Shown here piece by piece: positions 14,102 through 48,913 of a stretch of DNA of 64,000 nucleotides. The notes under the pieces were generated by a model. It was not told the DNA's origin, searched no databases, and saw only the letters and a program-made list of their open reading frames with translations. The translations under genes were made by a program, and so were the position numbers. How positions within the stretch are numbered: position 1 is the first letter of the stretch; every line of letters starts with the position of its first letter. This DNA is from Roseomonas sp. (lineage in GTDB: Bacteria > Pseudomonadota > Alphaproteobacteria > Acetobacterales > Acetobacteraceae). The stretch spans positions 1 to 64,000 of the forward strand of contig JADCFA010000013.1 of NCBI GenBank assembly GCA_020249775.1, written 5' to 3'.

Positions 14102-14105
14102 ATGA
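14085..14105 (+). CDS. Possible six-codon leader ORF coupled to the ABC exporter gene
   Basis: ATG CGC GTC AGC GAG AAA TGA (MRVSEK). A strong GAAGGGGG lies just before it, and its TGA overlaps the exporter ATG as ATGA. The exporter's own ATG has no separate good ribosome site, so ribosomes may load at the mini-ORF and re-initiate. It could be chance, and no regulatory content is visible in the peptide. Confidence 0.3.
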   Translation: MRVSEK

Positions 14106-15838: not shown

Positions 15839-15849
15839 GGATGAGCGCC

Positions 15850-21544: not shown

Positions 21545-21557
21545 CGCGTATTCTCCT

Positions 21558-23156
21558 TCAGCCGCGCATGGCTTGCAGTTGCGCGGGATACCCGGCGGGG
21601 TTCACCATCACATCAATCAGGCTTGGGCCTTTATGGGCGAAGGCGGTATCGAGTGCGGCGATATAGTCAGCCTCAGTCGCCGCAGCGAAACCCTTGGCGC
21701 CAAACCCTTCAGCAATGGCGGCGAAATCCGGCCGCGCCCAGCGCACGCCTTCGGGCGGCAATTGCCGTTGCTGCTGCTTGATATCAATCAGCGATAGCGC
21801 GCCATCATTGAAGACAATGGTGATGCAGGGCGCGCCCGCTTCAGCTGCGGTGGCGAGTTCGGCCACGCACATCATCAGCCCGCCATCACCGGTAAAGGCA
21901 ATGGCACCATCAGCAGGGTTTTCCAACGCCGCAGCCAGCGCGGCGGGTAGCGCAAAACCCATGGAAGCAAGGCCGTTCGAGATCAGCACATCGCGCGGTG
22001 CCGCGCATTCCCAAAAGGCGGTCGCTGAAAACATATGCGCGCCCGCATCCACGCTGATACGCGGGCGGCGCCCAGCGCGGCGGGCGGCCTCCTGCGCCAG
22101 GGTCACGATACGCGGCGGCGCAACACCGCCCGAGCCTTGCCAAGTCAAAGCCGCGCGCATCGTATCCCGATGCGTAGCGATTTCCTCAGTCTTCCAAGAA
22201 TTACGCGGGGCGTCTTGTGCCAGCGCGGTGAAGGCCGGCGCCAACGCGCCATGCAAGGCGGCGCTGGGTGTAACGTAATGCACCGGATGTGCGCGTAGGC
22301 CGATATCCAAAACCGGCGCCTTGTAGCGCCAAGGTTGCAGGATCAGTTCTACGGGATCGAGGCCCGCCAGGATGATCAAATCCGCATCCTGCACGCAGGG
22401 CGCTTCCAAGGAACCGCCGGTGAAAATGCCCACAAAATGCGGATCGGCATCCGCAATCACGCCCTTGGCCTTGTAAGTCACCAATGCGGGGCAACCGAGG
22501 GCTGCGACCAAAGCGCGCAGTGGTTCGGCTGCTGCCACGGCCTCGACGCCCGCCAGGATCACGGGTTTGCGCGAAGCTGCCAGCATGGTGCGTGCCGTCG
22601 CCAGCGCTTCAGCATCAAGCGGTTTGGCTGTGTTTGTCGGCAAAGGTAGCAATTCGCCCGCCGAGCGGCGCGCGGCTTCGCTGGTCAAATCCAGATGCAC
22701 CGGGCCGATGGGCGCTTGCATCGCAAGATCAAGCAGCGCTTCGATCTCAGCGGCCGGGTTGTCGCCGCGCGCTTGCGTATAGCCCTTCACCAACTCCGCG
22801 CTGGCGGCGCGCTGATCAAACACCTGATGTGTGATGTAGCTGAGTTGCTTTTCGGTGAAGCCATCGGTCAGCAGCAGTACCGGCGCGCGTTCCAGCGCGG
22901 CGCAGGCAATGCCATTCAGCGCATTCATCAGCCCCGGGCCTTTGGTGGTCAGTACCACGCCAGGCGCGCCGGTTACTTCCGCATCCGCCACCGCCATCAT
23001 CGCCGCATTGCCTTCGTGACGGGCGAGGATGAAGCGAATGCCAAAACGCTCAGCGGCTGCGATAATGTCCAGCGAAGAACCACCCCCCGGCACGCCATAG
23101 ATGCGCTTCGTGCCACGCCGCGCCAGCGCTGCCAGCACATACGCCGCGGTATTCAT
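21558..23156 (-). CDS. Thiamine-diphosphate-dependent enzyme (acetolactate synthase-like large subunit)
   Basis: A 532-residue ThDP enzyme of the pyruvate oxidase/acetolactate synthase/benzoylformate decarboxylase superfamily. The activating glutamate is in ARHEGNAAMMA (about residue 47). The ThDP-binding motif begins TGDGGLMM and ends IVFNDG. The central transhydrogenase-like domain is present, but no FAD-specific motif is evident. There is no small regulatory (ilvH-like) subunit nearby, so branched-chain amino-acid synthesis is unlikely; a catabolic 2-oxoacid decarboxylase or ligase role fits the operon better. It overlaps the preceding gamma-glutamyltransferase gene by four bases. Confidence 0.85.
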   Translation of the reverse strand: MNTAAYVLAALARRGTKRIYGVPGGGSSLDIIAAAERFGIRFILARHEGNAAMMAVADAEVTGAPGVVLTTKGPGLMNALNGIACAALERAPVLLLTDGFTEKQLSYITHQVFDQRAASAELVKGYTQARGDNPAAEIEALLDLAMQAPIGPVHLDLTSEAARRSAGELLPLPTNTAKPLDAEALATARTMLAASRKPVILAGVEAVAAAEPLRALVAALGCPALVTYKAKGVIADADPHFVGIFTGGSLEAPCVQDADLIILAGLDPVELILQPWRYKAPVLDIGLRAHPVHYVTPSAALHGALAPAFTALAQDAPRNSWKTEEIATHRDTMRAALTWQGSGGVAPPRIVTLAQEAARRAGRRPRISVDAGAHMFSATAFWECAAPRDVLISNGLASMGFALPAALAAALENPADGAIAFTGDGGLMMCVAELATAAEAGAPCITIVFNDGALSLIDIKQQQRQLPPEGVRWARPDFAAIAEGFGAKGFAAATEADYIAALDTAFAHKGPSLIDVMVNPAGYPAQLQAMRG

Positions 23157-24841
23157 GCGCGCGCCCGATCTGGCCAGAAACGCACACCAGAGCGCGCAAG
23201 GCCGCCGCCAAGGCCAATCGCCGTGCCATCAGCGCGCCAGCAGGCCGCGCCTTGCATGCTGCCATTGGCGTGGAAGGCGATGGCATTCATCCCGCCACCG
23301 ACATGCGGCATGGACGAAACCTGATGGCCGCGCTTGGCCAAAGCTTCCAACACAGATGCATCAAAGGCTGGTTCCACTTCCACCGCCGCGCCCTGTGTCC
23401 AAAGCCGCGGCGCTTCCACGGCTTCCTGCAGCGACATGCCGTGATCCACCAGATTGAGGAAACCCTGCATGACCGAACCAAAAATCCGCAAACCTCCCGG
23501 CATGCCCAGCGCATAGGCTGGCTTGCCATCGTGCAGCGCAATCAGCGGCGCCTGGGATGTGGTGATGCGCTTGCTGGGGGCCACTGACAAAGCCTTGCCG
23601 GGGCGCGGATCAAACAGCGCCATGTAATTATTCGGGATCAGCCCCGTGCCCGGTACCAGGAAGCGCGCACCAAAAAGCGAATTGATGGTCTGCGTCGAGC
23701 AAACAATATTCCCCTGATCATCCGCCACCGTGACATGGGTGGTATTGGCGCTCTCGCCCGGGCTGACGCCTGGCCCCCAGGCTTGCGCGCGCGCCATGTC
23801 CAAGGCGGCGCGGCGTTCATCGCTATAGGCACGCGAAATCAGCCGTGCCACCGGCACATCCACAAAGGCCGGGTCGGCGGTGGCGGCGGCGCGATCAGCG
23901 AAGGCAATTTTCAACGCCTCGGCCAGCACATGCAGCGTATCGGCGCTACCAAAACCCATCCCGCGCAGATCGAAGCCTTCCAGGATATTCAGCATTTGCA
24001 GCACATGAACGCCGGACGATGCTGGGGGCGGTGGCAGCAAAACCTCATAGCCACGATAGGGGCCGCGCAGGGGTGCCCGTTCAATCGTTGCGAAATCCGC
24101 GATATCGGCCGCCGAGACAATGCCGCCGGCCTTCCGGATACCATCGGTAATCGTGCTGCCCAAGGCGCCGTTCAATACACCCGGCCCTTCGCGCGCGATC
24201 AGCGTGAGGGTTTCGGCATATTCGGCCTGGATCAGTCGCGCCCCTGGCTTGATCGGCGCGCCATCAGGCAGCAGCAGTGCGGCAATGGCGGGATCGCGCG
24301 CCAGATCATGCGCGGCTTCCTTGATGCATTCGGCGAGGTATGGCGTCACGGCAAAACCCCGTGCCGCATGGCGTATGGCCGGCGCCATCACATCCGCCAA
24401 GGGCATGCTGCCGAAGCGCGCGAGGGTTTCGCACCAGGCGCGCAAATTGCCCGGCACCGCAATAGAAAGTGGCCCGACGATATTGGCGCGGCCTGTCGCT
24501 TCGAAATTCATCGCATTGGCAGGTTCGGCGGGCGCGAACATATCGGCGCGCGCTGCGGCCGGCGCGGTGGAAAGCCCATCAATCACGGTGTGCCGTCCGT
24601 CTGGCAGGCGCAGATGCGCCATGCCGCCGCCCAATATGCCGACCATCATGGGTTCCACCACCGTCAGTGCAAACAACGCGGCAATGGCGCCATCCACCGC
24701 ATTGCCGCCGGCTGCCAGCATTTCCGCCCCCGCAGCCGAGGCAAGCGGATGGTTCGTCACCACCATGCCGCGCGTGCCAATGGCAGGGCGCTTTTCCGTG
24801 GTGAAGCGCGAACCCGCGCGAGCAAGCCAATCCTGAGTCAT
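23153..24841 (-). CDS. Gamma-glutamyltransferase family protein (N-terminal nucleophile hydrolase)
   Basis: A 562-residue gamma-glutamyltranspeptidase homologue, made as a proenzyme that cleaves itself before a threonine. The nucleophile is probably Thr367 in ANTTHVTVADDQG. Other family marks are NHPLASAAGAEMLAAGGNAVDGA near the N-terminus (shown here in part) and a C-terminal MPGGLRIFGSVMQ. The start at 24841 (MTQDWL) is chosen because the longer frame to 25063 overlaps the MFS gene and has no family character. There is no signal peptide, unlike periplasmic Ggt, so it resembles cytoplasmic YwrD-type enzymes. Part of the hyu operon; it may act on gamma-glutamyl amides or related lactams. Confidence 0.85.
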   Translation of the reverse strand: MTQDWLARAGSRFTTEKRPAIGTRGMVVTNHPLASAAGAEMLAAGGNAVDGAIAALFALTVVEPMMVGILGGGMAHLRLPDGRHTVIDGLSTAPAAARADMFAPAEPANAMNFEATGRANIVGPLSIAVPGNLRAWCETLARFGSMPLADVMAPAIRHAARGFAVTPYLAECIKEAAHDLARDPAIAALLLPDGAPIKPGARLIQAEYAETLTLIAREGPGVLNGALGSTITDGIRKAGGIVSAADIADFATIERAPLRGPYRGYEVLLPPPPASSGVHVLQMLNILEGFDLRGMGFGSADTLHVLAEALKIAFADRAAATADPAFVDVPVARLISRAYSDERRAALDMARAQAWGPGVSPGESANTTHVTVADDQGNIVCSTQTINSLFGARFLVPGTGLIPNNYMALFDPRPGKALSVAPSKRITTSQAPLIALHDGKPAYALGMPGGLRIFGSVMQGFLNLVDHGMSLQEAVEAPRLWTQGAAVEVEPAFDASVLEALAKRGHQVSSMPHVGGGMNAIAFHANGSMQGAACWRADGTAIGLGGGLARSGVRFWPDRARA

Positions 24842-24854
24842 GATAAGTTTCTTT

Positions 24855-26018
24855 CTACTGACGCACCCGCATAAGCATAAGCGCGCCAACCGCCGCCACA
24901 CCCAGCAAGGCCGTGAACCACAAGGAAGCCGCGCCGAAATCATCCAAGAGCAGCCCGAACAACAAGGGCGCGAAAGCCTGTGAAGCCCGCGCCGGCGCCG
25001 TGATGAAGCCCTGGCGCTGGCCATAGCCAATGGGACCAAATAGCGCCAATGGCAGCGTGCCACGCGTAATGGTCAGCAAGCCATTCCCGGCGCCATGGAT
25101 AATCACAAACAGCGCCGCAAAGGGCGCGCCCAGTGCCATCAGCACCACCACCGCCAGCGGATGCGCGCCCGCGGCAAAGCGCGCGGAGAAAAGCGGGTTC
25201 ATCTTGCGCATGATGGTGAATTCCACCACCCGCGCCGCCACCTGCGCCGGGCCCATCAAAGCACCGGCGGCAATCGCTGCGGCCAACGATGTGCCGGCGG
25301 ATTGCAACAAGCCCGGTAGATGCGCGCCAAGCGCGGTGGAGCTGAAACTTGCTGTCGCTAAAACGAAAGCGAGCAGGATCATATCGCGCTTCTGTTCGCG
25401 CGTTTCCTCGGCGGATAAGGGCGGCACGGCTACCTTCGGTGGTGGCGGCGGCGCCTTCGGGATCAGCAAGCGATTGAGTGGCAGGCAGATGAAAAGATGC
25501 AAGGCCACCCAGCCAAGGCAGGCGCCGCGCCAGCCCCATTCGGCTTCCATCAGCGCAGAAAGCGGCCAGCCAACCGTACTGGCAAAACCCGCAATCAGTG
25601 TAATGCCTGTGATACTGTTGCGCGCATCCTTGCCGTAAAGCCCGGCAAGCGTCGCAAAGGCAGCATCATAAAGCCCCATCGCCATGGCGATGCCGATGAT
25701 GAACCAACTCAGGATCAGCAAAGGCAGACCATTGGCGAAGGCCATGATCAGCAGGCCGAGGATGAAAATCAGATTGGAAATCGCCAGCACATCGCGACCG
25801 CCGCGCTGGTCAATCGCGCGGCCCGCTGCGGGGCCAAGTAGCGCGGTCAGCAGCAGGGAGCCCGAAAACACGCCAAACACCATGGCGCGTGACAGGCCCA
25901 GATCTTCTGCAATCGGTGCAGCCAGAATTGCCGGTAAATAATAGGAAGACCCCCAGGCCAGGGTCTGGGTGGTGCCAAGCACCGTCACCACCCTGGCCTT
26001 GGAAGCGGTCGCGCTCAC
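24855..26018 (-). CDS. Major facilitator superfamily transporter
   Basis: A twelve-helix MFS permease of about 387 residues. The first helix begins at VVTVLGTTQTLAWGSSYYLP, and a loop 2-3 motif GRAIDQRGGRDVL matches the MFS signature region. A charged central loop with a proline run (PKAPPPPPK) separates the two halves. The start is uncertain: GTG at 26018 follows the dehydrogenase stop by 22 bases but lacks a clear ribosome site. TTG at 26087 has a weak one and would overlap the dehydrogenase by 47 bases. Substrate unknown; probably imports the compound handled by this operon. Confidence 0.8.
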   Translation of the reverse strand: MSATASKARVVTVLGTTQTLAWGSSYYLPAILAAPIAEDLGLSRAMVFGVFSGSLLLTALLGPAAGRAIDQRGGRDVLAISNLIFILGLLIMAFANGLPLLILSWFIIGIAMAMGLYDAAFATLAGLYGKDARNSITGITLIAGFASTVGWPLSALMEAEWGWRGACLGWVALHLFICLPLNRLLIPKAPPPPPKVAVPPLSAEETREQKRDMILLAFVLATASFSSTALGAHLPGLLQSAGTSLAAAIAAGALMGPAQVAARVVEFTIMRKMNPLFSARFAAGAHPLAVVVLMALGAPFAALFVIIHGAGNGLLTITRGTLPLALFGPIGYGQRQGFITAPARASQAFAPLLFGLLLDDFGAASLWFTALLGVAAVGALMLMRVRQ

Positions 26019-26040
26019 GAAAAAAGGCCCAAGCGCGCGA

Positions 26041-27099
26041 TCAATCCGTAATGGCGCGGCCACGCGCTGCGGCGTAGCGCTCCGCAAACCGGCCCTTCAC
26101 TTCCGGATTGATGATACGCGGCGGCATCTTGCCGGCAGCGCAGGCGGAAAAGGCCTCTGCCGCAATGCGCGTGATCATGGACCGGCTTTCATGCGTGACC
26201 CCCGCCGTGTGCTGCGTGCAGATCACTGCCGGGTGCCACAAAAGCGGGTGATCCTTGGGCGGCGGTTCCTGTTCCCAAACATCCAAACCGGCCGAGGCCA
26301 ATTGCCCGGATTCCAGCGCCGCCAACACGGCGTTCTCATCATGGATGGAACCGCGCGCCGTCGTCACCAGAATGGCGCCCTTCTTCATGCCGGCAAGCGC
26401 CTTGGCATCAATAATGGCGCGGCTTTCGGGCGTTAAGGGGCAATGCACACTAACGATATCGGATTGCGCCAGCAATTCGGCCAATTCCACCTTTTCCGCA
26501 CCGCGCTTGGCGATGGTTGCGGCATCCACATAGGGATCATAGGCCAGCACGCGGCAATTAAAGGCGGCCTTAACAATGGCGGTGGTGCGCGACCCCACAT
26601 TGCCAATGCCAATCACGCCAACCGTCTTATCGAGCAGATTATTGCCCATGAAGACCTCGCGGCGCTTGGCTTCGCCTGCGCGCATGGCGGCATGGGTCTG
26701 TGGCATTTTCTTGATCAGCGCCAGCATCATGCCAACCGCGTGTTCCGCCACGGCTTCAGCATTGCCGCCCGCCTGGTTCACCAGCAGCACGCCGGCCTTG
26801 GTGCAGGAATCCGGATTGATCGTGTCATACCCCGCTCCCTGGGATGCCACCATCAGCAGATTGGGCAGGCGCGCCAGCAGCGCATCATTCACATGAAACG
26901 CCTTTGGCAATTCATCGCGCGACGCGCGCACATAATAGCCATCACAGCTGGCAAGTTCCGCAAGCGCGGCTTCTTCCCCACTTTCCAGCGAAAGCCGCAC
27001 CACTTCCAAGGCGGGATCGGCGGTGGCGGTTTCCAGAAAGCTTGGATGCGGCACGCGTTCCAGATAGGCGACGCGGAATGGTTTATTGACTGCGGACAA
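26041..27099 (-). CDS. D-2-hydroxyacid dehydrogenase, NAD-binding (SerA/phosphoglycerate dehydrogenase-like)
   Basis: A 352-residue NAD(P)-dependent dehydrogenase of the D-isomer-specific 2-hydroxyacid family, which interconverts 2-oxoacids and D-2-hydroxyacids. The dinucleotide fold has GVIGIGNVGSR. The catalytic Arg is in TTARGS, the Glu in WEQEPPP and the His in TQHTAGVTHES. There is no ACT domain, so it need not be serine-biosynthetic. No ATG lies before the conserved region. TTG at 27099 has AAGGGGGAAG just upstream and is preferred over TTG at 27120. First gene of the minus-strand hyu operon. Confidence 0.85.
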   Translation of the reverse strand: MSAVNKPFRVAYLERVPHPSFLETATADPALEVVRLSLESGEEAALAELASCDGYYVRASRDELPKAFHVNDALLARLPNLLMVASQGAGYDTINPDSCTKAGVLLVNQAGGNAEAVAEHAVGMMLALIKKMPQTHAAMRAGEAKRREVFMGNNLLDKTVGVIGIGNVGSRTTAIVKAAFNCRVLAYDPYVDAATIAKRGAEKVELAELLAQSDIVSVHCPLTPESRAIIDAKALAGMKKGAILVTTARGSIHDENAVLAALESGQLASAGLDVWEQEPPPKDHPLLWHPAVICTQHTAGVTHESRSMITRIAAEAFSACAAGKMPPRIINPEVKGRFAERYAAARGRAITD

Positions 27100-27166
27100 G
27101 TGCGCTTCCCCCTTGCTCAAGACAAGGGATGCTAGACCCGGTTTTGCGCAGACGCCAAGCCGGGGC

Positions 27167-27520: not shown

Positions 27521-28270
27521 TCAGGCCAGGTAATTGCCGCCGTTGATGTGATAAACCTGACCCGTGATCCAGCCGGCTTGATCAGACGCAAGATAAACCA
27601 TGAGGCCGGCGATTTCTTCTGGCCGCCCCATCCGGCCCAGCGGGATTTGCTGCGCCATTGCCGCAAGCTCGGCTTCCGTATTGCCGTAGCGCGGCTGCGC
27701 GGTATCGGTCAGGCCGGGCGCAATAGCGTTCACGCGAATGCCCTTGGCGGCCAGGGATAGCGCCATGGACCGTGTCATGCCGATAATGCCGGCCTTGGTC
27801 GCGGTGTAATGCACGCCAAGCGGCGCTCCCCTGACGGAGGAGGAGGAGAGATTGATGATCACCCCCTTGATCCCCGCCGTCACCATGGCCCGCGCCGCTG
27901 CCTGGGCGCAAAAGGCGCTGCCCTTCAGATTGACGGCAATCACCCGGTCCCATTCGGCTTCCGTCATTTCAAGGAAGTCAACGCGCGGGAAAATGCCGGC
28001 GTTGTTCACCAGCACATCAATCCGCCCGAGTGCCGCGATGGTCTGTTCCACCAGGGCGGCAGCACCTGCGGCGGTGCCGACATCGCCCCGGATCAGCGCG
28101 GCGCGGCGGCCAGAAGCGCGGATATCTGCCGCCACGGCCTCGGCCTGGGCCTGATCATCCAGCCAATTGATCGCGACATCATGTCCCGCCGCCGCCAGGG
28201 CGCGCGCCACCGCTGCCCCGATGCCCTGCTGCGCGCCGGTTACCAGCGCCACCCTTGTTTCGCCCGCCAT
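27521..28270 (-). CDS. Short-chain dehydrogenase/reductase (FabG-like)
   Basis: A 249-residue classical SDR. The cofactor motif TGAQQGIGAAVA lies at about residues 11-22, NNAG at about 88-91, and the catalytic Ser-Tyr-Lys as INLSSSS, HYTATKAG. The C-terminal GGNYLA is family-typical. The WLDDQAQ segment after beta-2 has no obvious NADPH arginine cluster, so cofactor preference is open. It probably acts on a ketone or secondary alcohol. It is transcribed with the small cytochrome c gene. Divergent from the next SDR, with about 113 bases between the starts. Confidence 0.85.
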   Translation of the reverse strand: MAGETRVALVTGAQQGIGAAVARALAAAGHDVAINWLDDQAQAEAVAADIRASGRRAALIRGDVGTAAGAAALVEQTIAALGRIDVLVNNAGIFPRVDFLEMTEAEWDRVIAVNLKGSAFCAQAAARAMVTAGIKGVIINLSSSSVRGAPLGVHYTATKAGIIGMTRSMALSLAAKGIRVNAIAPGLTDTAQPRYGNTEAELAAMAQQIPLGRMGRPEEIAGLMVYLASDQAGWITGQVYHINGGNYLA

Positions 28271-28383: not shown

Positions 28384-29151
28384 GTGGATATTGCTGGGAT
28401 GTTCTCGTTGCAGGGTCGCGTGGCGCTGGTGACTGGTGCGTCCGGCGTTTTGGGCGCGCATTTCGCGCGTGTGCTCCATGGTGCGGGGGCTTCGGTGGCG
28501 CTGGCCGCGCGGCGCGAGGCCGCAACCGCCGCGCTGGCGGCGGAATTGGGGTCCCGCGCCGTGTCCGTGCCCTTGGATGTGACGGCGCCGGCGAGTATCG
28601 CGCCCGCCTTTGCCGCCGCGGAAGCCGCTTTCGGTGCGCCTTGCGATATTCTGGTCAATAACGCCGGCATCGCGGTGACCAAGCCCGCCTTGCAGCAAAG
28701 CGCCGAGGATTGGGATGCGGTGCAGGATGTCAATCTGCGCGGCTGCTTTCTGGTGGCGCAGGAAGCCGCCAAGCGCCTGGTGGCCGCGAAGCGTCCGGGT
28801 GTGGTTGTGAATATCGCCTCGGCGCTTGGCGTTCGGATCATTCCTGGTGTGGTTGGCTATACCGCCGCCAAGGCCGGGCTATTGCACGTGACGCGCCATT
28901 TGGCGGTGGAATGGGCGCGGTATGGCATTCGGGTGAATGCGATTGCGCCTGGCTATATCGCCACCGATATCAATCGTGAGTTCTTCGCCTCCGATGCTGG
29001 GCAGGCGATGGTCAAGCGCATACCGCAGCGCCGGCTTGGCGCTGCCGAGGACCTTACCGGGCCGCTTTTGCTGCTCGCTTCCGATGCCGGGGCACATATG
29101 ACCGGCGCGGTGGTGACGGTGGATGGCGGCCATTCGATCAACCCGCTTTAG
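28384..29151 (+). CDS. Short-chain dehydrogenase/reductase, first gene of acyl-CoA operon
   Basis: A 255-residue SDR with TGASGVLGAHFA (cofactor motif, about residues 17-28), NNAGIAV, and the catalytic segments VNIASALG and YTAAKAG. The GTG at 28384 is chosen because GGGAGG lies seven bases before it; ATG at 28399 has no good site, and the long upstream extension overlaps the divergent SDR. It stands ten bases before an acyl-CoA dehydrogenase gene. In the P. putida lva operon an oxidoreductase (LvaD) reduces the 4-keto group of levulinyl-CoA, so this SDR could make or consume a hydroxyacyl-CoA. That role is inferred from context. Confidence 0.85.
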   Translation: MDIAGMFSLQGRVALVTGASGVLGAHFARVLHGAGASVALAARREAATAALAAELGSRAVSVPLDVTAPASIAPAFAAAEAAFGAPCDILVNNAGIAVTKPALQQSAEDWDAVQDVNLRGCFLVAQEAAKRLVAAKRPGVVVNIASALGVRIIPGVVGYTAAKAGLLHVTRHLAVEWARYGIRVNAIAPGYIATDINREFFASDAGQAMVKRIPQRRLGAAEDLTGPLLLLASDAGAHMTGAVVTVDGGHSINPL

Positions 29152-29161
29152 GTTTGCTGTC

Positions 29162-30373
29162 ATGGAATTTTCTCTGCCCCCCGAAATAGATGATATGCGC
29201 CGGCGCATTCGCCGCTTTGTGGATGAAAAGCTGATCCCGCTGGAATCCGACCGCGCGAATTTCGATGAGCATGAAAATATCGCGCCGCATGTGCTGGAGG
29301 AAATGCGCAAGGCCGCCAAGGCAGAAGGGCTTTGGGCGTTGCAAATGCCAAAGCGCTTGGGCGGGCAGGAATTGCCGCGCATTGGCATGGCCGCCTGTTA
29401 TGAGGAAATGAACAGGTCCATCTTCGGGCCGGTGGTGTTCAATAGCGCCGCGCCGGATGACGGCAATATGATGATTCTGGATCGCGTTTTGCCGGAAGCA
29501 ATGAAGCCGCGCTGGTTGCAGCCGATTGTGGATGGCGATGTGCAATCCGCCTTCGCCATGACGGAACCGGATGGCTGCGGTTCAGACCCCAATCTGACCT
29601 ATACCAAGGCCGAACGCGTTGGGAATGATCGCTGGCGCATCACCGGGCGCAAATGGTTCATCACCGGCGCCGGCAATGCCAAGATTTTCATCATCATCGC
29701 GCGCACATCGGATGATTCGCGCAAGGGACTTTCCGCTTTTCTGTTCAGCGCCGATCAGCCGGGCTGGAAGATTGTGCGCCGCATCCCGATCATGGGGCCG
29801 GAAGAACATGGCGGGCATTGCGAATTGGTATTCGATGGCCTCGAAATCCCCAATGAGCATTTGCTGATGAGCGAAGGCGATGGGCTGAAGCTCACGCAAA
29901 TGCGGCTTGGCGTAGCGCGGCTGACGCATTGCATGCGCTGGCTGGGCTTGTCTCGGCGTGCCTTGGAAATCGCCATGGAACGCATCGGGCAGCGTGATTC
30001 CTTCGGCATGAAGCTGATTGATCGCGAAAGCGTGCAAGGGCTGGTCGGCCAGGCGGCGATGGAGATTGAGATCGGCCGGCTGCTGACCATGAAGGCGGCT
30101 TGGGTGCTGGACCAGGGCGGCTTTGCGCGGAAGGAAGTTTCCATGGCGAAGATCGTGGTCGCGGATGCCTTGCATAAATCCGTGGATACGGCGCTGCAAT
30201 TGCTCGGCGCGCGCGGCTATTCCAAGGATACCGTCATTGAATGGATGTATCGCTATGCCCGCCAGGCGCGGCTGGTGGATGGCGCATCCGAAGTGCATCG
30301 CATGGTGCTGGCCAATACCTTGCGGGCGGAGGGTTCTTCCTTCTTCGCCTGGGGTCCGCCCAAGCATGGATGA
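29162..30373 (+). CDS. Acyl-CoA dehydrogenase, ACAD10/11-like subgroup (LvaC-like)
   Basis: A 403-residue flavoprotein of the acyl-CoA dehydrogenase family. N-terminal helices are followed by FAMTEPDGCGSDP and WRITGRKWFITGAG (FAD/substrate region). The C-terminal helical domain ends with VDGASEVHRMVLA, where MCAD-type enzymes have G-T-x-Q-I; the D-G-x-x-E-V-H form is typical of the ACAD10/11 group. Those enzymes handle 4-hydroxyacyl-CoAs after phosphorylation by an APH-like kinase, and such a kinase gene overlaps this gene's last eight bases. The start is ATG 29162 (MEFSLPP). Likely partner of the kinase and small protein that follow. Confidence 0.88.
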   Translation: MEFSLPPEIDDMRRRIRRFVDEKLIPLESDRANFDEHENIAPHVLEEMRKAAKAEGLWALQMPKRLGGQELPRIGMAACYEEMNRSIFGPVVFNSAAPDDGNMMILDRVLPEAMKPRWLQPIVDGDVQSAFAMTEPDGCGSDPNLTYTKAERVGNDRWRITGRKWFITGAGNAKIFIIIARTSDDSRKGLSAFLFSADQPGWKIVRRIPIMGPEEHGGHCELVFDGLEIPNEHLLMSEGDGLKLTQMRLGVARLTHCMRWLGLSRRALEIAMERIGQRDSFGMKLIDRESVQGLVGQAAMEIEIGRLLTMKAAWVLDQGGFARKEVSMAKIVVADALHKSVDTALQLLGARGYSKDTVIEWMYRYARQARLVDGASEVHRMVLANTLRAEGSSFFAWGPPKHG

Positions 30374-31373
30374 GGCGCGGCGCGCAAAACTGAAGGATTG
30401 GCTGCGCGGGGCGACCGGCGCGGCTGATCTTGAACTTGGTGCCATGGCGCTGCTTTCTGGCGGCGCCATTCAGCAGAATTGGGCTTTGGATGTTAAGCGC
30501 GCCGGGCGGGATGAGGCCTGGGTGCTGCGCACCGATAATGCCGCGACCTTGGCCGTTTCCCTGCCGCGATCGGCAGAATTCGCGTTATTGAAAGCGGCCT
30601 TTGGCGCAGGCGTGACAGTGCCTGAGCCGCTTTATTTGTGTGACGATGCCGGCATTTTGGGCGCGCCATTTTTCATCATGCGTCGCGTGCTGGGCATTGC
30701 GGCGGGGCATCGCGTCGTGAAAAGTGAAACGCTCTGCGCTGGGCGGGATGCGGCGGTGCAGGCGCTTGGGCGCGAATTGGCGCGCATTCATCGCATCACG
30801 CCGCCGCGCGCGGATTTGGCGTTTTTGGGCGTGCCGCCCGATGATGCCTGCCTGGCCTTTGTGGGTGAACAACGCCGCGCACTGGACCGGCAAGCGTTGC
30901 CGCGCCCTGTGCTGGAGTGGGGCTTGCGCCATTTGGAACGCACCGCGCCGCCGCCGCTACCGCCCGTGCTCAACCATAATGATTTCCGCACCGGCAATCT
31001 GATGCTGGCGGAGGCGGGAGTAACCGCCGTGCTGGATTGGGAATTCGCTGCCTGGGGCGAACCGCATGCGGACCTCGGCTGGTTCTGTGCCAAATGCTGG
31101 CGCTTCGGCAGCGCCCATGAAGCGGGTGGCATTGGCGGGCGTCATGCCTTCTATGCCGGCTATGCGGCGGAAGCCGGCCATGCGGTGGATGCCGCGCGCG
31201 TGACCTGGTGGGAATTGGCCGCACATATTCGCTGGGCGGTGATTGCGATTGACCAGGCAGCGCGGCATCTCTCTGGCAAGGAAACCAGCCTGGAACTGGC
31301 ACTTACCGGGCACATCGTGCCGGAGCTTGAATGGGAAATCCTGAATATGACGGGGGTGCCCGATGTGGCGTGA
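30366..31373 (+). CDS. APH-like phosphotransferase (LvaA/ACAD11 kinase-like)
   Basis: A 335-residue kinase-fold protein of the aminoglycoside phosphotransferase family. The ATP-binding N-lobe includes WVLRTDN. The catalytic loop is NHNDFRTGNLML (about residues 200-211), with the Asp as catalytic base, and LDWEFAAWGEP is the Mg-binding DxD-like segment. The gene overlaps the acyl-CoA dehydrogenase gene by eight bases and the small-protein gene by 11, so the three are probably made together. In this genetic setting such proteins phosphorylate the hydroxyl of 4-hydroxyacyl-CoA; an antibiotic-resistance role is unlikely. Confidence 0.87.
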   Translation: MDEARRAKLKDWLRGATGAADLELGAMALLSGGAIQQNWALDVKRAGRDEAWVLRTDNAATLAVSLPRSAEFALLKAAFGAGVTVPEPLYLCDDAGILGAPFFIMRRVLGIAAGHRVVKSETLCAGRDAAVQALGRELARIHRITPPRADLAFLGVPPDDACLAFVGEQRRALDRQALPRPVLEWGLRHLERTAPPPLPPVLNHNDFRTGNLMLAEAGVTAVLDWEFAAWGEPHADLGWFCAKCWRFGSAHEAGGIGGRHAFYAGYAAEAGHAVDAARVTWWELAAHIRWAVIAIDQAARHLSGKETSLELALTGHIVPELEWEILNMTGVPDVA

Positions 31374-31722
31374 AGCCCCGGAAGGACCCAATCTTCTGGC
31401 AACCGCCCGAGACGCGTTGTTGCAGGAAATCCTGCCGAAACTTTCCGGTACGGATGCCTTCACTGCGCGCATGATCGCCAATGCCATGGCGATCGCCGCG
31501 CGTGAGGCTGTGCAGGGTGATGCATGGGTCGAAGAAACACGCGCCACGATGCAGCGCCTGACGGGTGCTGCTGACGCATCGGACCGTGCCTTGGCTGCCG
31601 CAATTCGCGCGGGCGCCTATGATCCAGGCAGCGCGCATCACGCCGAAGTGGTGGCGCTGCTGCGGGAGGCAACACGAATGCGCTGCGCCATCAGCGCGCC
31701 TCGGGTTTTGGGAAAGGGTTGA
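31363..31722 (+). CDS. Small conserved protein next to APH-like kinase (DUF6285/LvaB-like)
   Basis: A 119-residue mostly helical protein (RDALLQEILPKLSG, FTARMIANAMAIAAREA) with no catalytic motif. It resembles the DUF6285 family of small proteins usually encoded beside APH-like kinases and acyl-CoA dehydrogenases. In P. putida the similar-sized LvaB is required with LvaA for 4-hydroxyacyl-CoA phosphorylation. The 11-base overlap with the kinase gene fits an obligate partner or stabilising subunit. Family assignment is from memory of its appearance and context. Confidence 0.75.
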   Translation: MWREAPEGPNLLATARDALLQEILPKLSGTDAFTARMIANAMAIAAREAVQGDAWVEETRATMQRLTGAADASDRALAAAIRAGAYDPGSAHHAEVVALLREATRMRCAISAPRVLGKG

Positions 31723-31725
31723 AGC

Positions 31726-33336
31726 ATGCAGGATGATCTGCCGAAAACCGCGGCCAATCATGTGCCGCTTTCCCCGGTTTCCTTCCTGCCGCGTGCGGCA
31801 CATATCTGGGGCAAGCGTATCGCCATTATTCATGGCGCGCGGCGCATTACCTATGCGCAGTTTCTGGAGCGCAGCCGCCGCCTGGCTTCGGCCTTGCGCG
31901 ATGCTGGCATTGCGCCGGGCGATGTGGTGGCGGCACTGCTGCCGAATATCCCGGAAATGCTGGAAGCGCATAATGCCGTGCCTATGGCGCATGCCGTGCT
32001 CTGCCCCATCAATACGCGGCTGGATGCGGCCACTGTGCGCTTCATCCTTGCCCATTCGGGCGCGAAAATCCTGCTGCTGGACCGCGAATTCGCCGCGTTG
32101 GTGAATTCAGCCTTGGACGGGATGGAAAACCCGCCGCGTATCATCATCATTGATGATCCCGAAGGCCCGGGTGGTGCCGCGATTGAAGCGACCCCCTATG
32201 AGGATTTCATCGCGGGCGGTGACGTGGCTTTTCCGGTGACGCAACCGACAGATGAATGGGCGGCGATTTCGCTTTCCTACACTTCTGGCACCACGGGCGA
32301 TCCCAAGGGCGTGGTCGCGCATCATCGCGGCGCTTATCTGAATGCCTGCGGCAATGCGCTTTCCTTTGGCTTGACGGCACAAAGCGTCTATCTCTGGACG
32401 CTACCGATGTTTCACTGCAATGGCTGGACTTATACCTGGGCGGTCACGCTGCAAGGCGGTACCCATGTCTGCTTGCGCCGTGTGGAACCTGCGCGGATTT
32501 TCGCGCTGATTGCCGAACATGGCGTCACGCATCTCTGCGCCGCGCCGGTGGTCCTGACCATGCTGATCCATGCGCCGGAAGATCAGCGCCGCCGCTTCGC
32601 GCATCGTGTTGGGATTGCGACTGGTGGTGCGGCGCCGCCTTCACCCGTCATCGCGGCGATGGAGAAGCTCGGCTTTGATGTCACGCATCTTTATGGGCTG
32701 ACGGAATGCTATGGCCCTTCGTTGCTATGTGCCTGGCAGCCGGGCCTGCATGATTTGCCGCTTGCGGAAAAAGCCGCCTTCATGGCGCGGCAGGGTGTGG
32801 CGTTACCCACGCTGGAAGAAGCGAGCGTGATCGATACGGAAACCGGCGCGCCTGTACCCGCCGATGGCGCAACAATTGGTGAGATTGCCATTCGCGGCAA
32901 TACCGTGATGAAGGGCTATTTGCGCAATCCCAAGGCCAATGCTGCGGTCTTTGTGGATGGCTGGTTCCGCACCGGTGATTTGGGCGTGCTGCATCCGGAT
33001 GGCTATATTGAGGTGAAGGACCGCGCCAAGGATATTGTGATCTCGGGCGGGGAGAATATCAGCAGCCTGGAAGTGGAAGAAGCGCTCTATCGCCATCCGG
33101 ATGTCATGGAAGCCGCCGTGGTGGCACACCCGGATGAAAAATGGGGCGAGGTGCCGCATGCCTTCATCACGCTGAAGCCGGGGGCAGCGGAAAACCGTGA
33201 TGGCATTATTGCCTTCTGCCGCGCCAATCTGGCGGGGTATAAGGTGCCACGGCACATTACCTTCGGGCCGCTGCCCAAAACTGCCACGGGCAAGATCCAG
33301 AAATTTGAATTGCGCGCCCGGGTGCGCGGTGGCTGA
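31726..33336 (+). CDS. Acyl-CoA ligase (AMP-binding, ANL superfamily)
   Basis: A 536-residue adenylating enzyme that activates a carboxylic acid to its CoA thioester through an acyl-AMP. The P-loop-like motif is YTSGTTGDPKGVV (about residues 185-197), the A5-type motif is YGLTECYGP, the hinge Asp is in WFRTGDLG, and the C-terminal catalytic Lys is in PKTATGKIQK. Length is normal for medium/short-chain ligases. It follows the small-protein gene after three bases. In the lva-like model it would activate the entering acid, as LvaE does. Confidence 0.9.
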   Translation: MQDDLPKTAANHVPLSPVSFLPRAAHIWGKRIAIIHGARRITYAQFLERSRRLASALRDAGIAPGDVVAALLPNIPEMLEAHNAVPMAHAVLCPINTRLDAATVRFILAHSGAKILLLDREFAALVNSALDGMENPPRIIIIDDPEGPGGAAIEATPYEDFIAGGDVAFPVTQPTDEWAAISLSYTSGTTGDPKGVVAHHRGAYLNACGNALSFGLTAQSVYLWTLPMFHCNGWTYTWAVTLQGGTHVCLRRVEPARIFALIAEHGVTHLCAAPVVLTMLIHAPEDQRRRFAHRVGIATGGAAPPSPVIAAMEKLGFDVTHLYGLTECYGPSLLCAWQPGLHDLPLAEKAAFMARQGVALPTLEEASVIDTETGAPVPADGATIGEIAIRGNTVMKGYLRNPKANAAVFVDGWFRTGDLGVLHPDGYIEVKDRAKDIVISGGENISSLEVEEALYRHPDVMEAAVVAHPDEKWGEVPHAFITLKPGAAENRDGIIAFCRANLAGYKVPRHITFGPLPKTATGKIQKFELRARVRGG

Positions 33337-33339
33337 GGC

Positions 33340-34566
33340 ATGATGACAGAACCCCTAAAGCCTGGCGCGCTGACCGGGCTTCGCGTGATTGACCTGACTC
33401 GCGTCGTAGCCGGCCCGCTTTGCGCGCAAATGCTGGGCGATCTTGGGGCGGAAATTGTTAAGCTGGAACGCCAAGGCAATGGGGATGATCTGCGCGCACT
33501 CGGCCCGCCCTTTGTTGCTGGCAGTGATGACAGCACCTATTTTGTCTCGCTCAATCGGAACAAGCGCTCACTCAGCCTGGATTTCACGCAAGCGGAAGGT
33601 GCCGCGATTCTGAAACGCATGGTGGCGAAGGCGGATGTGCTGATCGAGAATTTCCGCACCGGCACGCTGGCGCGCTATGGCCTGGGCTATGAGGATTTGC
33701 GCGCCATCAATCCACGGCTGATCTATTGTTCCGTGACCGGCTTTGGTCAGGATGGGCCTTACGCGCATCGCTCGGGCTATGATTTTGTGGCGCAGGCCAT
33801 GGCCGGGCTGATGGAAGTGACCGGTGAGGCTGATGGCAAGCCAGGCGGCGGCCCGCAGCGTGTTGGCGTGCCGGTAGCGGATATGTTCACAGGCTTCGCG
33901 GCAGCGGTTTCCATCCTGGCGGCGCTGCGCCACCGTGACCAGACGGGTGAGGGGCAATATTGCGAAGTCTCGCTCTATGAGACGATGGTGTCATTGATGC
34001 AGGCGCCAATGGCCTCCTGGCTGAATGCGGGCAAGCTGATGCAGCGCACCGGCAATGATGCGGTTGTGGCGGTGCCTTATGGCGTGTTCCAGGGCTCGGA
34101 CGCGAAATTCGTCATTGGTGTTTTGAATGACCGTGAGTTCGTCAGGCTTGCGGCGGCGCTGGGCCATCCTGAATGGTCGGAGGATGAACGTTTTCGCCGC
34201 GCGCGCGACCGTGCGGCCAATCGCGATCTGCTGCTTGGCATGATGAATGATGTGCTGCGCCAAAGGCCAAGGGCTGAATGGTTGGCAGTGTTGGAGGATG
34301 CCAAAATCACCTCTGGCCCCATCAATACGGCCGCCGATGTGGAAGCTGATCCGCATACCAAGGCGCGAGGCTTGATTGTGGAAGTGCCGCATCATGCGGG
34401 TGGGCGCGTGCGCGTGCCAGCATCACCGCTGCATCTTGCAGCGACGCCGGTGACCTATCGCTACGGCATTCCGGCGCCTGGTGAGCATACGGATGCGGTG
34501 CTGCGCGAATTTGCCGAGATGACAACAGAAGAAATCGCCGCGGCGCGTGCCGCTGGCGTCTTGTAA
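33340..34566 (+). CDS. CaiB/BaiF-type CoA transferase (class III)
   Basis: A 408-residue class III CoA transferase, which moves CoA from one acid to another through an aspartyl-CoA intermediate. The N-terminal segment is RVIDLTRVVAGPLC with DLGAEIVKLE, and the catalytic Asp is probably in VADMFTG (about residue 185). NLNRNKR-like SLNRNKRS and GYDFVAQAM are further family marks. It starts three bases after the ligase gene. A ligase and a transferase together could serve two acids, or let the acid be activated without ATP. Confidence 0.9.
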   Translation: MMTEPLKPGALTGLRVIDLTRVVAGPLCAQMLGDLGAEIVKLERQGNGDDLRALGPPFVAGSDDSTYFVSLNRNKRSLSLDFTQAEGAAILKRMVAKADVLIENFRTGTLARYGLGYEDLRAINPRLIYCSVTGFGQDGPYAHRSGYDFVAQAMAGLMEVTGEADGKPGGGPQRVGVPVADMFTGFAAAVSILAALRHRDQTGEGQYCEVSLYETMVSLMQAPMASWLNAGKLMQRTGNDAVVAVPYGVFQGSDAKFVIGVLNDREFVRLAAALGHPEWSEDERFRRARDRAANRDLLLGMMNDVLRQRPRAEWLAVLEDAKITSGPINTAADVEADPHTKARGLIVEVPHHAGGRVRVPASPLHLAATPVTYRYGIPAPGEHTDAVLREFAEMTTEEIAAARAAGVL

Positions 34567-34578
34567 GGGGGCTGCGCC

Positions 34579-35718
34579 ATGGCTGGGCTTCGTTTTGATT
34601 TGCGCGATGCGCCTGAAGGCGCGGCGGCGCTGCGCACGGAACTGCGCGGATTTCTCGCGGAACATGCGCCGAATTTTACGCCGGAAATTCGCGCCCGATC
34701 CTGGATGGGGTTTGACCGTGATTTCACCCGCGCTGTCGGCGCCAAGAGTTGGATTGGCATGTGCTGGCCGCGCGAATATGGCGGGGGCGAAAAAAGCTTT
34801 CTGGAACGCAATATCGTGCTGGAAGAAATGCTCGCCGCCGGCGCGCCGGTGGGCGCGCATTGGATCGGGGATCGGCAATCCGGCCCGTTGATCCTGAGAC
34901 TTGGGACGGAGGAACAGAAGCGCCATTTCCTGCCGCGGATCGCGAGTGGCGAATACGCTTTTTGCATCGGCTTGTCGGAACCTGATTCGGGAAGCGATCT
35001 GGCGTCGCTCCGTACCAAGGCGGAAAAGGTAGATGGCGGCTGGAAGCTGAATGGGCGCAAGATTTGGACCACCTTCGGGCATCTTTGCGATTGGATGATT
35101 GCGCTGGTGCGTACCTCTCCGGCGCCGGAAGGGGGCGCGCGGCATATTGGGCTTTCGCAAGTGCTGGTCAATTTGCGCGCGCCGGGTGTGCATATTCGCC
35201 CAATCCGCGACTTGGTGGGTGAGAAGGGTTTCAATGAAATCACCTTCGATGATGTGATGCTGCCGGAAGATGCGCTGGTCGGTCAGGAAGGTGCGGGCTG
35301 GGCGCAGGCCACGAGTGAATTGGCCTTTGAACGCAGCGGGCCGGATCGGTATTTGTCATCGCATCCCTTGCTGGAAGCGGCGATGACGACGTTGAAGCAG
35401 GATGGCGCGGCGGCACCCGCATTGGGGCGCCAAGTCGCGCGGCTTTGGGCTTTGCGCAATATGTCAGTCGCAGTGGCTGGTATGTTGGAAGATGGGCAGG
35501 ACCCTGTGCGGCAAGCGGCGCTGGTCAAGGATTTGGGCAATGATTTCGAACAGGCCTTGCCCAATGTGGTGCGTGATCTGATCGCGACTGAAGACATGCC
35601 AGAGGATATGCGCCGCATGCATGCCTATCTGACGCAGATTGTGCCGACCTTCTCCTTGCGCGGCGGCACGCGGGAAATCATGCGTGGCATTATCGCGCGC
35701 GAATTGGGGCTGCGCTGA
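34579..35718 (+). CDS. Acyl-CoA dehydrogenase (larger/FadE-like partner)
   Basis: A 379-residue acyl-CoA dehydrogenase with IGLSEPDSGSDLAS (about residues 133-146) and WKLNGRKIWTT typical of the FAD/substrate site. The C-terminus ends with LRGGTREIMRGIIARELGL, the usual G-T-x-E/Q-I motif. AGGGGG stands upstream of the ATG. It is followed one base after its stop by a second, shorter acyl-CoA dehydrogenase gene. Such adjacent pairs commonly form alpha2-beta2 enzymes (as in steroid and branched acyl-CoA catabolism), so a heteromer is plausible. Confidence 0.88.
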   Translation: MAGLRFDLRDAPEGAAALRTELRGFLAEHAPNFTPEIRARSWMGFDRDFTRAVGAKSWIGMCWPREYGGGEKSFLERNIVLEEMLAAGAPVGAHWIGDRQSGPLILRLGTEEQKRHFLPRIASGEYAFCIGLSEPDSGSDLASLRTKAEKVDGGWKLNGRKIWTTFGHLCDWMIALVRTSPAPEGGARHIGLSQVLVNLRAPGVHIRPIRDLVGEKGFNEITFDDVMLPEDALVGQEGAGWAQATSELAFERSGPDRYLSSHPLLEAAMTTLKQDGAAAPALGRQVARLWALRNMSVAVAGMLEDGQDPVRQAALVKDLGNDFEQALPNVVRDLIATEDMPEDMRRMHAYLTQIVPTFSLRGGTREIMRGIIARELGLR

Positions 35719-35719
35719 C

Positions 35720-36730
35720 ATGGCAAGCGAAATCGCAATCGAACTCGCCGAACAGGCCGATCGCGCGCTGACGGCTGCGGCGGATGTGGCGGTGCTGCGC
35801 AGCCTGGAAGCGGGCGATTGGCCGGCTACCACCTGGGATGCCATGGCTTCACTCGGCCTGAATGGCGCGCTGGTGCCGGAAGAAGCGGGCGGCGTCGGGC
35901 TTGGCTTTGCGGATGTCGCGCCCTTGTTGGAAGTGTTGGGCCGCCATGCCGCGCCGGTGCCGCTGGCGGAGAGTATTTTTGGCAGTGCCTTGCTGGCGGC
36001 GGCGGGCATCACGCCGCCCGATGGTGCGCTGAGTTTTGGTGCGCGCAATGGCGCCATTCCCTGGGGGCGACACACTGGCCATGTCGCGCTTTTGGATGGC
36101 GCACGCATTGCGGTTTACCCGGCAGCGGCGCTCGCCTGGGAACAAGGCGGCAATATCGGCCATGAAGCGCGGGATCGTGCGCGCATCATCGGCGTGCCGA
36201 TCACGGAAGCGGTGTTGCCAAATGGCTGGGGCGCGGAAGCGGGTTTGCTGTGCACAGCACTGATGCGCGCGGCGCAGACCGCGGGTGCGATGCAGGCGGC
36301 GCTGGCGCTGGCGGTGGATCACGCCAATACGCGCAAGCAATTTGGCCGGCCGATTGGGCGCTTTCAGGCTATTCAACAGCAACTCGCGGTTTTCGCGGCA
36401 GAGACTTCGGCCGCGTCCGTTGCCGCTGCTGCGGCCGCGCGCGCGGTGGATCGGCGTGGCCTTGCGGCAGCGGCGTTTGAGATCGGTTGCGCCAAGATCA
36501 CAGCCGGTGAAGCCGCCACGCGTGGCGCCGCCATCGCGCATCAGGTTTTCGCCGCCATGGGCATTACGGAAGAACATCAACTGCATCATTTCACCCGCCG
36601 GCTTTGGTCTTGGCGCGAGGAAGGTGGCAGCGAAGCCTTTTGGGCCAAGCGAATCGGGCAGGAAGCGCAAGCGCTGCCGGGTGCCCTTTGGCCCTTTATC
36701 ACTGCGCGCGAGGAGGAAATCGCCCCATGA
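35720..36730 (+). CDS. Acyl-CoA dehydrogenase-like protein (smaller partner)
   Basis: A 336-residue acyl-CoA dehydrogenase relative. It keeps the N-terminal (WDAMASLGLNGALVPEEAGG) and C-terminal helical domains (DHANTRKQFGRPIGRFQ, a typical FAD-contact segment). The central T/S-E-P motif region is shortened and unlike active enzymes, and the end reads GITEEHQLHHFTRRLW instead of the G-T-x-E-I motif. It may therefore be the non-catalytic subunit of a heteromer with the preceding protein. ATG at 35720 follows the previous stop by one base; the stop overlaps the next gene by four bases. Confidence 0.82.
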   Translation: MASEIAIELAEQADRALTAAADVAVLRSLEAGDWPATTWDAMASLGLNGALVPEEAGGVGLGFADVAPLLEVLGRHAAPVPLAESIFGSALLAAAGITPPDGALSFGARNGAIPWGRHTGHVALLDGARIAVYPAAALAWEQGGNIGHEARDRARIIGVPITEAVLPNGWGAEAGLLCTALMRAAQTAGAMQAALALAVDHANTRKQFGRPIGRFQAIQQQLAVFAAETSAASVAAAAAARAVDRRGLAAAAFEIGCAKITAGEAATRGAAIAHQVFAAMGITEEHQLHHFTRRLWSWREEGGSEAFWAKRIGQEAQALPGALWPFITAREEEIAP

Positions 36731-37530
36731 CCCCTTTCCTGAATATCGAACATGATGGCGGCATCGTCACCCTTACGCTGAACCGCCCGGACAAGCGCAA
36801 TGCGATTTCCACGCGCGCAGAATGTGAGGAAGTGGAAGCCGCCTGCCGCCGCCTGTCGCGTGATGACAGCGTGCGCTGCGTGATTGTGACCGGTGCGGGT
36901 TCCGCTTTTTGCGCCGGCGGTGATTTGAAGGGCATGCGTGACAAAACCGGCATCACAGGTGGCGGCACGGGGGCAGAAATTCGCGAATCCTATCGCCGTG
37001 GTATTCAATTGATTCCGCTGGCACTTTATGAATTGGATATTCCAACCATCGCGGCGGTGAATGGGCCGGCGATTGGCGCGGGGCTTGATCTTGCGTTGAT
37101 GTGCGATATTCGTGTTGCCAGTGAAAAGGCGCTGTTTGCTGAAAGCTTCGTCAAGGTTGGCATTGTGCCGGGTGATGGAGGCGCCTATTTGCTGCCGAAG
37201 GTCGTTGGCATGTCGAAGGCTCTGGAATTGTCGCTGACGGGAGAAACTATCGGTCCCGCCGAAGCGTTGGCCTGCGGCATGGTTTCGAAAGTGGTGGCGC
37301 CGGAAGCGCTGTTGGATGCGGCGCGCGCCATAGCTGCGAAAATTGCCGCCAATCCGCCGCAAGCGGTGCGGCTGACCAAGCGCCTGTTGCGCGAAAGTCA
37401 GCATACACGGTTGTCCACGCTACTTGAAATGTCGGCAGCCTATCAGGCGCTTGCGCATGGCACGCGGGATCATCGCGAAGCAGTGGATGCCATGCTCGAA
37501 AAACGCGCGCCAAGTTTTGAGGGCAGATAA
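36727..37530 (+). CDS. Enoyl-CoA hydratase/isomerase family protein
   Basis: A 267-residue crotonase-fold enzyme. NRPDKRNAIS is the N-terminal CoA-binding segment. AFCAGGDLKGM and VNGPAIGAGLDLALMCD form the two oxyanion-hole regions. The Glu expected in hydratases may be in FAESFVKVGIVPGDGG, where the second Glu position is Asp-Gly, so isomerase or hydrolase activity is also possible. It is the last gene of the 28.4-37.5 kb operon and overlaps the preceding gene (ATGA). Confidence 0.88.
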   Translation: MTPFLNIEHDGGIVTLTLNRPDKRNAISTRAECEEVEAACRRLSRDDSVRCVIVTGAGSAFCAGGDLKGMRDKTGITGGGTGAEIRESYRRGIQLIPLALYELDIPTIAAVNGPAIGAGLDLALMCDIRVASEKALFAESFVKVGIVPGDGGAYLLPKVVGMSKALELSLTGETIGPAEALACGMVSKVVAPEALLDAARAIAAKIAANPPQAVRLTKRLLRESQHTRLSTLLEMSAAYQALAHGTRDHREAVDAMLEKRAPSFEGR

Positions 37531-48780: not shown

Positions 48781-48913
48781 TTTGCCGTATAAGGGTAGCT
48801 TCGAAACCGTTGTCAGTAACGCGCGGCGCCGCTATTTGAGTCGGAAACACCCTGTGGTCTGACTTCGCCGGGTAACAATCAATCAAGATAAACCATTGTG
48901 GGGACCTGACCGG

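Follow-up and report, generated by a model that had tools for sequence, protein, structure and literature searches.

A predicted Lva-type 4-hydroxyacyl-CoA isomerisation module with its own lineage of ACAD10/11-type dehydrogenase in Roseomonas sp.

A tight row of genes in Roseomonas sp. very likely encodes a Lva-type module for the isomerisation of 4-hydroxyacyl-coenzyme A (CoA). It lies within a 64,000-nucleotide stretch of contig JADCFA010000013.1 (positions 1 to 64,000 of the forward strand; hereafter the window), in a genome of 4.07 Mb. Its core comprises genes for a short-chain dehydrogenase/reductase (SDR), an acyl-CoA dehydrogenase (ACAD), an APH-fold kinase, a small protein of the DUF6285 family and an acyl-CoA ligase. 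Phosphorylation of 4-hydroxyacyl-CoA and elimination of the phosphate are known in Pseudomonas putida and in ACAD10/ACAD11. We infer from sequence both that the window proteins carry out this chemistry and which acids they act on. The ligase would convert the acid to its acyl-CoA and the SDR would reduce a 4-keto group, where present, to the 4-hydroxyl, which the kinase together with the DUF6285 protein would phosphorylate on the CoA ester. The ACAD10/11-type flavoenzyme would then remove the phosphate to yield a 2-enoyl-CoA for further processing by the crotonase encoded downstream and by general beta-oxidation. Through this addition and later removal of phosphate, 4-hydroxy or 4-keto acids would very probably gain access to ordinary fat breakdown. 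A sequence-only reading of this DNA had proposed the same chemistry, and it gains support from the best or only Lva matches in the genome, from the ACAD11 residues of the dehydrogenase and from the placement of the kinase in the LvaA clade.

All five core genes have open frames on the plus strand, with the Pfam assignments given in Table 1. Their spacing agrees with the gaps of 3 to 10 bases and the overlaps of 8 and 11 that it gave: 10 bases separate the SDR and ACAD genes, ACAD and kinase overlap by 8, kinase and DUF6285 by 11, and 3 bases precede the ligase. The motifs HNDFRTGN and D-G-x-x-E-V-H, the latter as DGASEVH, were found in the translations of kinase and ACAD. The extent of 28384..33336 assigned to the cluster is right for the five genes but ends too early, as genes for CaiB, two ACADs and the crotonase come next, no gap or overlap exceeding 12 bases, in a row unbroken up to position 37530.

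As reference for the lva operon we used the one on Pseudomonas aeruginosa plasmid p12939-PER (locus L041), standing in for P. putida. It encodes a PrpR-type regulator, a phosphotransferase, a protein named LvaB in the record, an ACAD, an SDR, an acyl-CoA synthetase, a DUF485 protein and a cation acetate symporter, the same gene set as given for P. putida in passages of PMC6692424. Identities in BLASTP comparisons were 49% for SDR and LvaD, 42% for ACAD and LvaC, 46% for kinase and LvaA, 40% for the DUF6285 protein and LvaB, and 60% for ligase and LvaE. Searching the host genome with LvaE returned the window ligase at the top (61%, among nine places at 1e-30); likewise, the window SDR ranked first for LvaD (52%, among 34 at 1e-20) and the window ACAD for LvaC (43%, among ten at 1e-20). 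The LvaA query matched one of six APH loci in the genome, namely the window kinase, and DUF6285 is present as a single copy. A comparison with LvaA, LvaB and LvaC, suggested earlier as a check, hence identifies the window kinase, DUF6285 protein and ACAD as the best or only counterparts in this genome.

Handling of 4-phosphoacyl-CoA in ACAD11 is tied to R626, H634 and R637, beside the catalytic D753, in PMC12440821, which describes R631 as common to ACADs generally. Equivalents of H597, R626, R631, H634, R637 and D753, the full set of six ACAD11 residues considered, occur in the window ACAD and in 11 bacterial relatives aligned with it. Its top PDB matches are ACAD11 structures (2wbi at 1.2e-70; also 8v3u and 8v3v), followed by the putative ACAD 4hr3 (1.8e-61), which aligns with most of the same residues, and by a short-chain ACAD (3.3e-43). 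The five-residue pattern RRHRD was found in all 112 rows of the window ACAD subfamily (above 500 bits), in 32/32 high-scoring LvaC-like rows and in 9/9 intermediate rows; here and for the kinase arginines below, counts refer to distinct rows, with duplicate loci merged and rows below 100 bits excluded. None of 17 low-scoring ACAD rows (100-250 bits) displays it: seven carry FRQSE, six QRIRG and three other patterns, and the last is an LvaC-like gene truncated by a contig end, so that of the pattern only the D is visible.

Matches to the window ACAD at 1e-75 or better occur in 68 of 289 alphaproteobacterial genomes, its own included. Relatives at 58-71% identity occupy 38 places besides its own (one a partial gene), and the next are at or below 42%. 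A tree of 72 ACADs resolves three separate lineages, the window subfamily (43 rows), LvaC (16 rows) and mouse ACAD11 (8 rows), with respective supports of 99, 100 and 98 in the Shimodaira-Hasegawa-like approximate likelihood ratio test (SH-aLRT); this tree and that of the kinases come from quick searches without bootstrap. Each lineage mixes rows near DUF6285-associated kinases with rows near ACAD11-type kinases, the DUF6285-associated rows of the mouse ACAD11 lineage (L075, L235) belonging to a distant DUF6285 kinase clade. PMC11342911 gives 62% and 56% identity between ACAD10/11 and LvaC, at odds with the 34% of plasmid LvaC and mouse ACAD11 in our alignment.

Seventy kinases split into clades of 20 and 50 rows, with an SH-aLRT of 100 on both sides. 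Mouse ACAD11 falls in the smaller clade together with 19 bacterial kinases, none of which has a DUF6285 neighbor; the larger one includes LvaA and the window kinase. By our own DUF6285 profile, the domain lies beside the kinase in 36 of these 50 rows, in the same frame in nine, and was not detected in five. This profile missed the kinase frames of L156, L163 and L165, in which the Pfam model detects DUF6285 (genomes G367, G366 and G248), leaving L200 and L208. DUF6285 was found beside none of the 19 ACAD11-type kinase rows sampled. The distant DUF6285-kinase clade, some members of which are fused, adjoins FRQSE-type ACADs without the phosphate-site residues (L156, L159, L161, L162, L165, L174, L175).

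The two kinase types also differ in residues. All 19 ACAD11-type rows carry an arginine before the alphaC glutamate, as do 2 of 124 LvaA-clade rows and none of 18 distant ones (161 distinct rows). A second arginine occurs in 19/19, 23/124 and 1/18 rows, respectively, and is the weaker marker, although the LvaA-clade arginines aligned there are not set in an RQ..RW stretch in those rows that were inspected. The window kinase reads SAEF at the alphaC position and has no RQ..RW stretch. Two such arginines are modelled at the CoA moiety of the ACAD11 kinase in PMC12440821. We take the first, numbered 84 in our alignment, to be R86 of that paper with some doubt, as the offset used reproduces R176, D220 and N225. 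Because LvaA-type kinases lack the arginine implicated in CoA binding and nearly always come with DUF6285, we hypothesize that DUF6285/LvaB may replace a substrate-binding element of the kinase. According to PMC6692424, a pull-down recovered LvaB together with LvaA, and neither lvaA nor lvaB mutants grew on levulinate. In PMC11342911, a Burkholderia pseudomallei LvaA orthologue is able to replace the kinase part of ACAD10, and a term search of its main text gave no mention of LvaB. As the two kinase types form two clades, their correlation with DUF6285 amounts to one evolutionary split and not to many independent events.

Fusions of kinase and DUF6285 in a single frame occur in Roseococcus (L101, L107), Aquibaculum (L131) and further genomes (L157, L160, L190), with L188 as a candidate of weak DUF6285 score (24 bits). 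Pfam detects both domains in L107 and L131. On the kinase tree, five LvaA-clade fusions require four changes of the fusion label, be they gains or losses. The fused proteins were aligned without separate DUF6285 rows (alignment A4); an alignment combining fusions with separate kinase and DUF6285 rows (A2) was dropped, as the short DUF6285 rows spread beyond the DUF6285 part. AlphaFold predicts five helices and a short sixth for the window DUF6285 protein (predicted local distance difference test, pLDDT, 93; predicted template modelling score, pTM, 0.74). Foldseek gave this model no useful match to solved structures (11 matches, best E 3.5). The model of a Roseococcus fusion (pLDDT 88, pTM 0.84) contains a low-confidence linker.

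A search of 59 genomes detected DUF6285 in 41, among them 33 of 34 same-genus relatives, and a phylum sample of 396 gave 48; both totals include the host genome. From the 33 same-genus genomes with DUF6285, 17 loci were examined over 13-20 kb. SDR, ACAD, kinase and DUF6285 follow each other on the same strand and in the same order in 17/17, with the ligase next in 16, so the five-gene clustering is more than chance. All 17 ACADs display RRHRD. In 12 of these loci a CaiB gene lies no more than 6 kb from the kinase; a second ACAD is present within 8 kb in ten and a crotonase within 9 kb in nine. No substrate clue comes from L059 and L062, where the genes separating ligase and CaiB include one with an LprI domain on the opposite strand, or from L053, where two frames downstream of the ligase gave no Pfam match. 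Among 80 named loci found via the kinase (the best 80 of 504), the closest matches are Roseomonas-like metagenome-assembled genomes, then Neoroseomonas; DUF6285 is present in 78, including 62/62 with 2.5 kb on each side, an RRHRD ACAD within 4 kb in 74, an SDR in 59 and a ligase in 32. We also examined 37 of the 38 ACAD-subfamily places, picked irrespective of kinase and leaving out the partial gene, some on short stretches. Within 6 kb, 19 have an LvaA-type kinase with DUF6285, two an LvaA-type kinase without it and five an ACAD11-type kinase; an SDR is present in 25 and a ligase in eight.

Several observations weigh against a Lva-type module. No kinase of either type lies within 6 kb at the other 11 of the 37 loci, some on short stretches (L176, L177, L178, L180, L181, L189, L194, L196, L199, L202, L205; an SDR is near in seven), and these ACADs would depend on a kinase encoded at another site. 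Nine of the genomes have such a distant match to the kinase alignment at 1e-20 (one strong, the fusion in G302, one of intermediate score and seven weak), and in the other two none was found at this threshold. Distant DUF6285 kinases stand beside ordinary ACADs, with FRQSE in seven rows, so that a DUF6285-kinase pair alone is no proof of the chemistry. Moreover, the window ACAD is 37-42% identical to three proteins of the LvaC lineage and falls into a lineage of its own, hence its substrate may differ. Finally, no LvaR-, LvaF- or LvaG-like gene (sigma-54 regulator, DUF485 protein, acetate symporter) was found among the 20 frames scanned between 21558 and 42563.

The last two points also bear on an alternative account, by which the cluster is the plain levulinate pathway of the genus, with substrate and role as in P. 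putida lvaABCDE and merely rearranged genes. We regard this as a credible but less probable prospect. It would explain why SDR and ligase are the top LvaD and LvaE matches of the genome and stand in the same row, whereas the lack of detected LvaR, LvaF and LvaG neighbors, the separate ACAD lineage and the extra CaiB, ACAD and crotonase genes of many relatives speak against it. An LvaE-like ligase also leaves the substrate unfixed, since, according to PMC6692424, LvaE accepts acids of C4 to C6 when purified, and growth on levulinate persists in an lvaE mutant. CaiB, paired ACADs and crotonase downstream suggest an acid that needs further CoA transfer and dehydrogenation, making levulinate one candidate of several.

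It is improbable that the kinase instead phosphorylates another alcohol for ATP-driven side-chain dehydration, as 25-hydroxysteroid kinase does, next to a normal dehydrogenase. That kinase (9fsg/9ft5) takes ranks 2-4, after 3dxp, in the fold search with the Roseococcus fusion model, and the downstream paired ACADs and CaiB resemble side-chain degradation. However, 9fsg is the weakest of the eight hits listed in the sequence search with the window kinase (E 0.00098), behind 9o56, 3dxp and ACAD11, and the window ACAD has the full phosphate-site pattern that is absent from the sampled ordinary ACADs. Least probable of all, kinase and DUF6285 protein would form a general acyl-CoA kinase of unspecified position, linked to ACADs by loose clustering of fatty-acid genes, as the ordinary ACAD neighbors of the distant clade and the 11 kinase-less ACAD loci might suggest, but this fits poorly with the RRHRD ACAD close to 74 of the best 80 kinase loci.

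The 4-hydroxyacyl-CoA module and other features of the window are compiled in Table 1. In the second downstream ACAD-like gene, Pfam matches the C- and N-terminal domains and not the middle domain. Starts at 35720 and 36727 are the first methionines chosen downstream of listed TTG starts.

Table 1 Features of the window with positions, strand and basis or remark
Feature	Position	Strand	Basis or remark
SDR oxidoreductase, LvaD-like, proposed 4-ketoacyl-CoA reductase	28384..29151	+	Pfam adh_short
ACAD10/11-type dehydrogenase, LvaC-like	29162..30373	+	Pfam Acyl-CoA_dh, ACAD11 residues, own tree lineage
APH-fold kinase, LvaA-type, proposed 4-hydroxyacyl-CoA kinase	30366..31373	+	Pfam APH, tree
DUF6285 protein, LvaB-like, 119 residues, proposed kinase partner subunit	31363..31722	+	Pfam PF19802, E 6e-20
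Acyl-CoA ligase, LvaE-like, proposed free-acid activation	31726..33336	+	Pfam AMP-binding; NCBIfam PRK08162 above cut-off
CaiB/family III CoA-transferase	33340..34566	+	Pfam CoA_transf_3; 3-base gap after ligase
Acyl-CoA dehydrogenase, PimC-like, ordinary kind	34579..35718	+	Pfam; best NCBIfam pimC_large, below cut-off
Acyl-CoA dehydrogenase-like partner	~35720..36730	+	Pfam on longer frame 35639-36727
Enoyl-CoA hydratase (crotonase)	~36727..37530	+	Pfam ECH_1, NCBIfam PRK09245 above cut-off (longer frame 36604-37527)
Another SDR, upstream of the row	27521-28270	-	then 2-hydroxyacid dehydrogenase and major facilitator superfamily (MFS) transporter
Hydantoinase A and B, thiamine pyrophosphate (TPP) enzyme, gamma-glutamyltranspeptidase, MFS transporter, 2-hydroxyacid dehydrogenase	17868-27120	-	possible separate catabolic operon
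Tripartite ATP-independent periplasmic (TRAP) transporter DctM component, ~7 kb past the cluster	44367-46397	-	possible carboxylate importer
Type ISP specificity and N6-methylase domain protein, restriction-modification-like	48896-52045	+
Subtilase with repeats-in-toxin (RTX) repeats, then ATP-binding cassette (ABC) transporter and HlyD-type protein	11505-17172	+	possible type I secreted protease with exporter

Homologues of lvaABCD in Alpha-, Beta- and Gammaproteobacteria are reported in a passage of PMC6692424, citing Rand et al. 2017, hence the existence of such clusters in Alphaproteobacteria was already known and the present one is a variant of a known pathway. What we add are the ACAD lineage distinct from those of LvaC and ACAD11, the extension of the operon and the division into two kinase types, for all of which we found no earlier report in the open-licence literature; nor did we find a paper on DUF6285 there, and on levulinic acid with Roseomonas a single review came up. 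The cluster offers a testable, widely conserved bacterial counterpart of mammalian 4-hydroxy fatty acid handling, and the role of LvaB (DUF6285), which nearly always adjoins one kinase type and in several lineages forms a single protein with it, becomes testable as well. A bolder scenario, rather unlikely as a whole, would have LvaB/DUF6285 as an obligate CoA-anchoring subunit replacing the ACAD11-type arginines, two kinase classes swapped between ACAD lineages, and the window operon as the chief entry route for 4-hydroxy acids in Roseomonas-like bacteria, with a substrate other than levulinate.

Among known systems, the lva operon (LvaABCDE) has all five protein types in common with the window cluster, that is, an LvaA-type kinase with a small partner, a phosphate-site ACAD, and an SDR and ligase of the LvaD and LvaE kind. 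The rearrangement anticipated by the sequence-only reading is borne out, as the window order is D-C-A-B-E, with none of LvaR, LvaF and LvaG found adjoining, whereas the lva operon runs A-B-C-D-E together with these three. Unlike the lva operon, the window row also contains an ACAD of a lineage apart from LvaC (42%; SH-aLRT 99) and the extra genes for CaiB, paired ACADs and crotonase. In the lva variant of Pseudomonas citronellolis and Stutzerimonas, an LvaA-type kinase is likewise accompanied by genes resembling lvaC and lvaD. DUF6285 is encoded on the Stutzerimonas plasmid, as in the window, but DUF6285 and ACAD are separated there by a histidine phosphatase gene that the window cluster lacks. 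Such a gene directly follows DUF6285 in clusters of Stutzerimonas, Azospirillum and Azoarcus (L248:3832-9751; L038:10237-11360; L042:9017-10065). P. citronellolis is described as without lvaB and with the histidine phosphatase in PMC6692424; since the Stutzerimonas operon holds both, P. citronellolis may have a DUF6285 gene that went unrecognised. The phosphatase might, at a guess, clear stranded 4-phosphoacyl-CoA. The likeness to ACAD10/ACAD11 that had been proposed holds for the dehydrogenase, in which R626, R631, H634, R637 and D753 are conserved and whose PDB matches agree, and does not extend to the kinase. Mouse ACAD11 kinase groups with the DUF6285-less kinases, whereas that of the window falls in the LvaA clade and has a DUF6285 partner, and kinase and ACAD are two separate, overlapping genes instead of one fused protein. 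The kinase-plus-ACAD chemistry of ACAD10/ACAD11 on 4-hydroxyacyl-CoA is nevertheless what we would expect of the window cluster, too.

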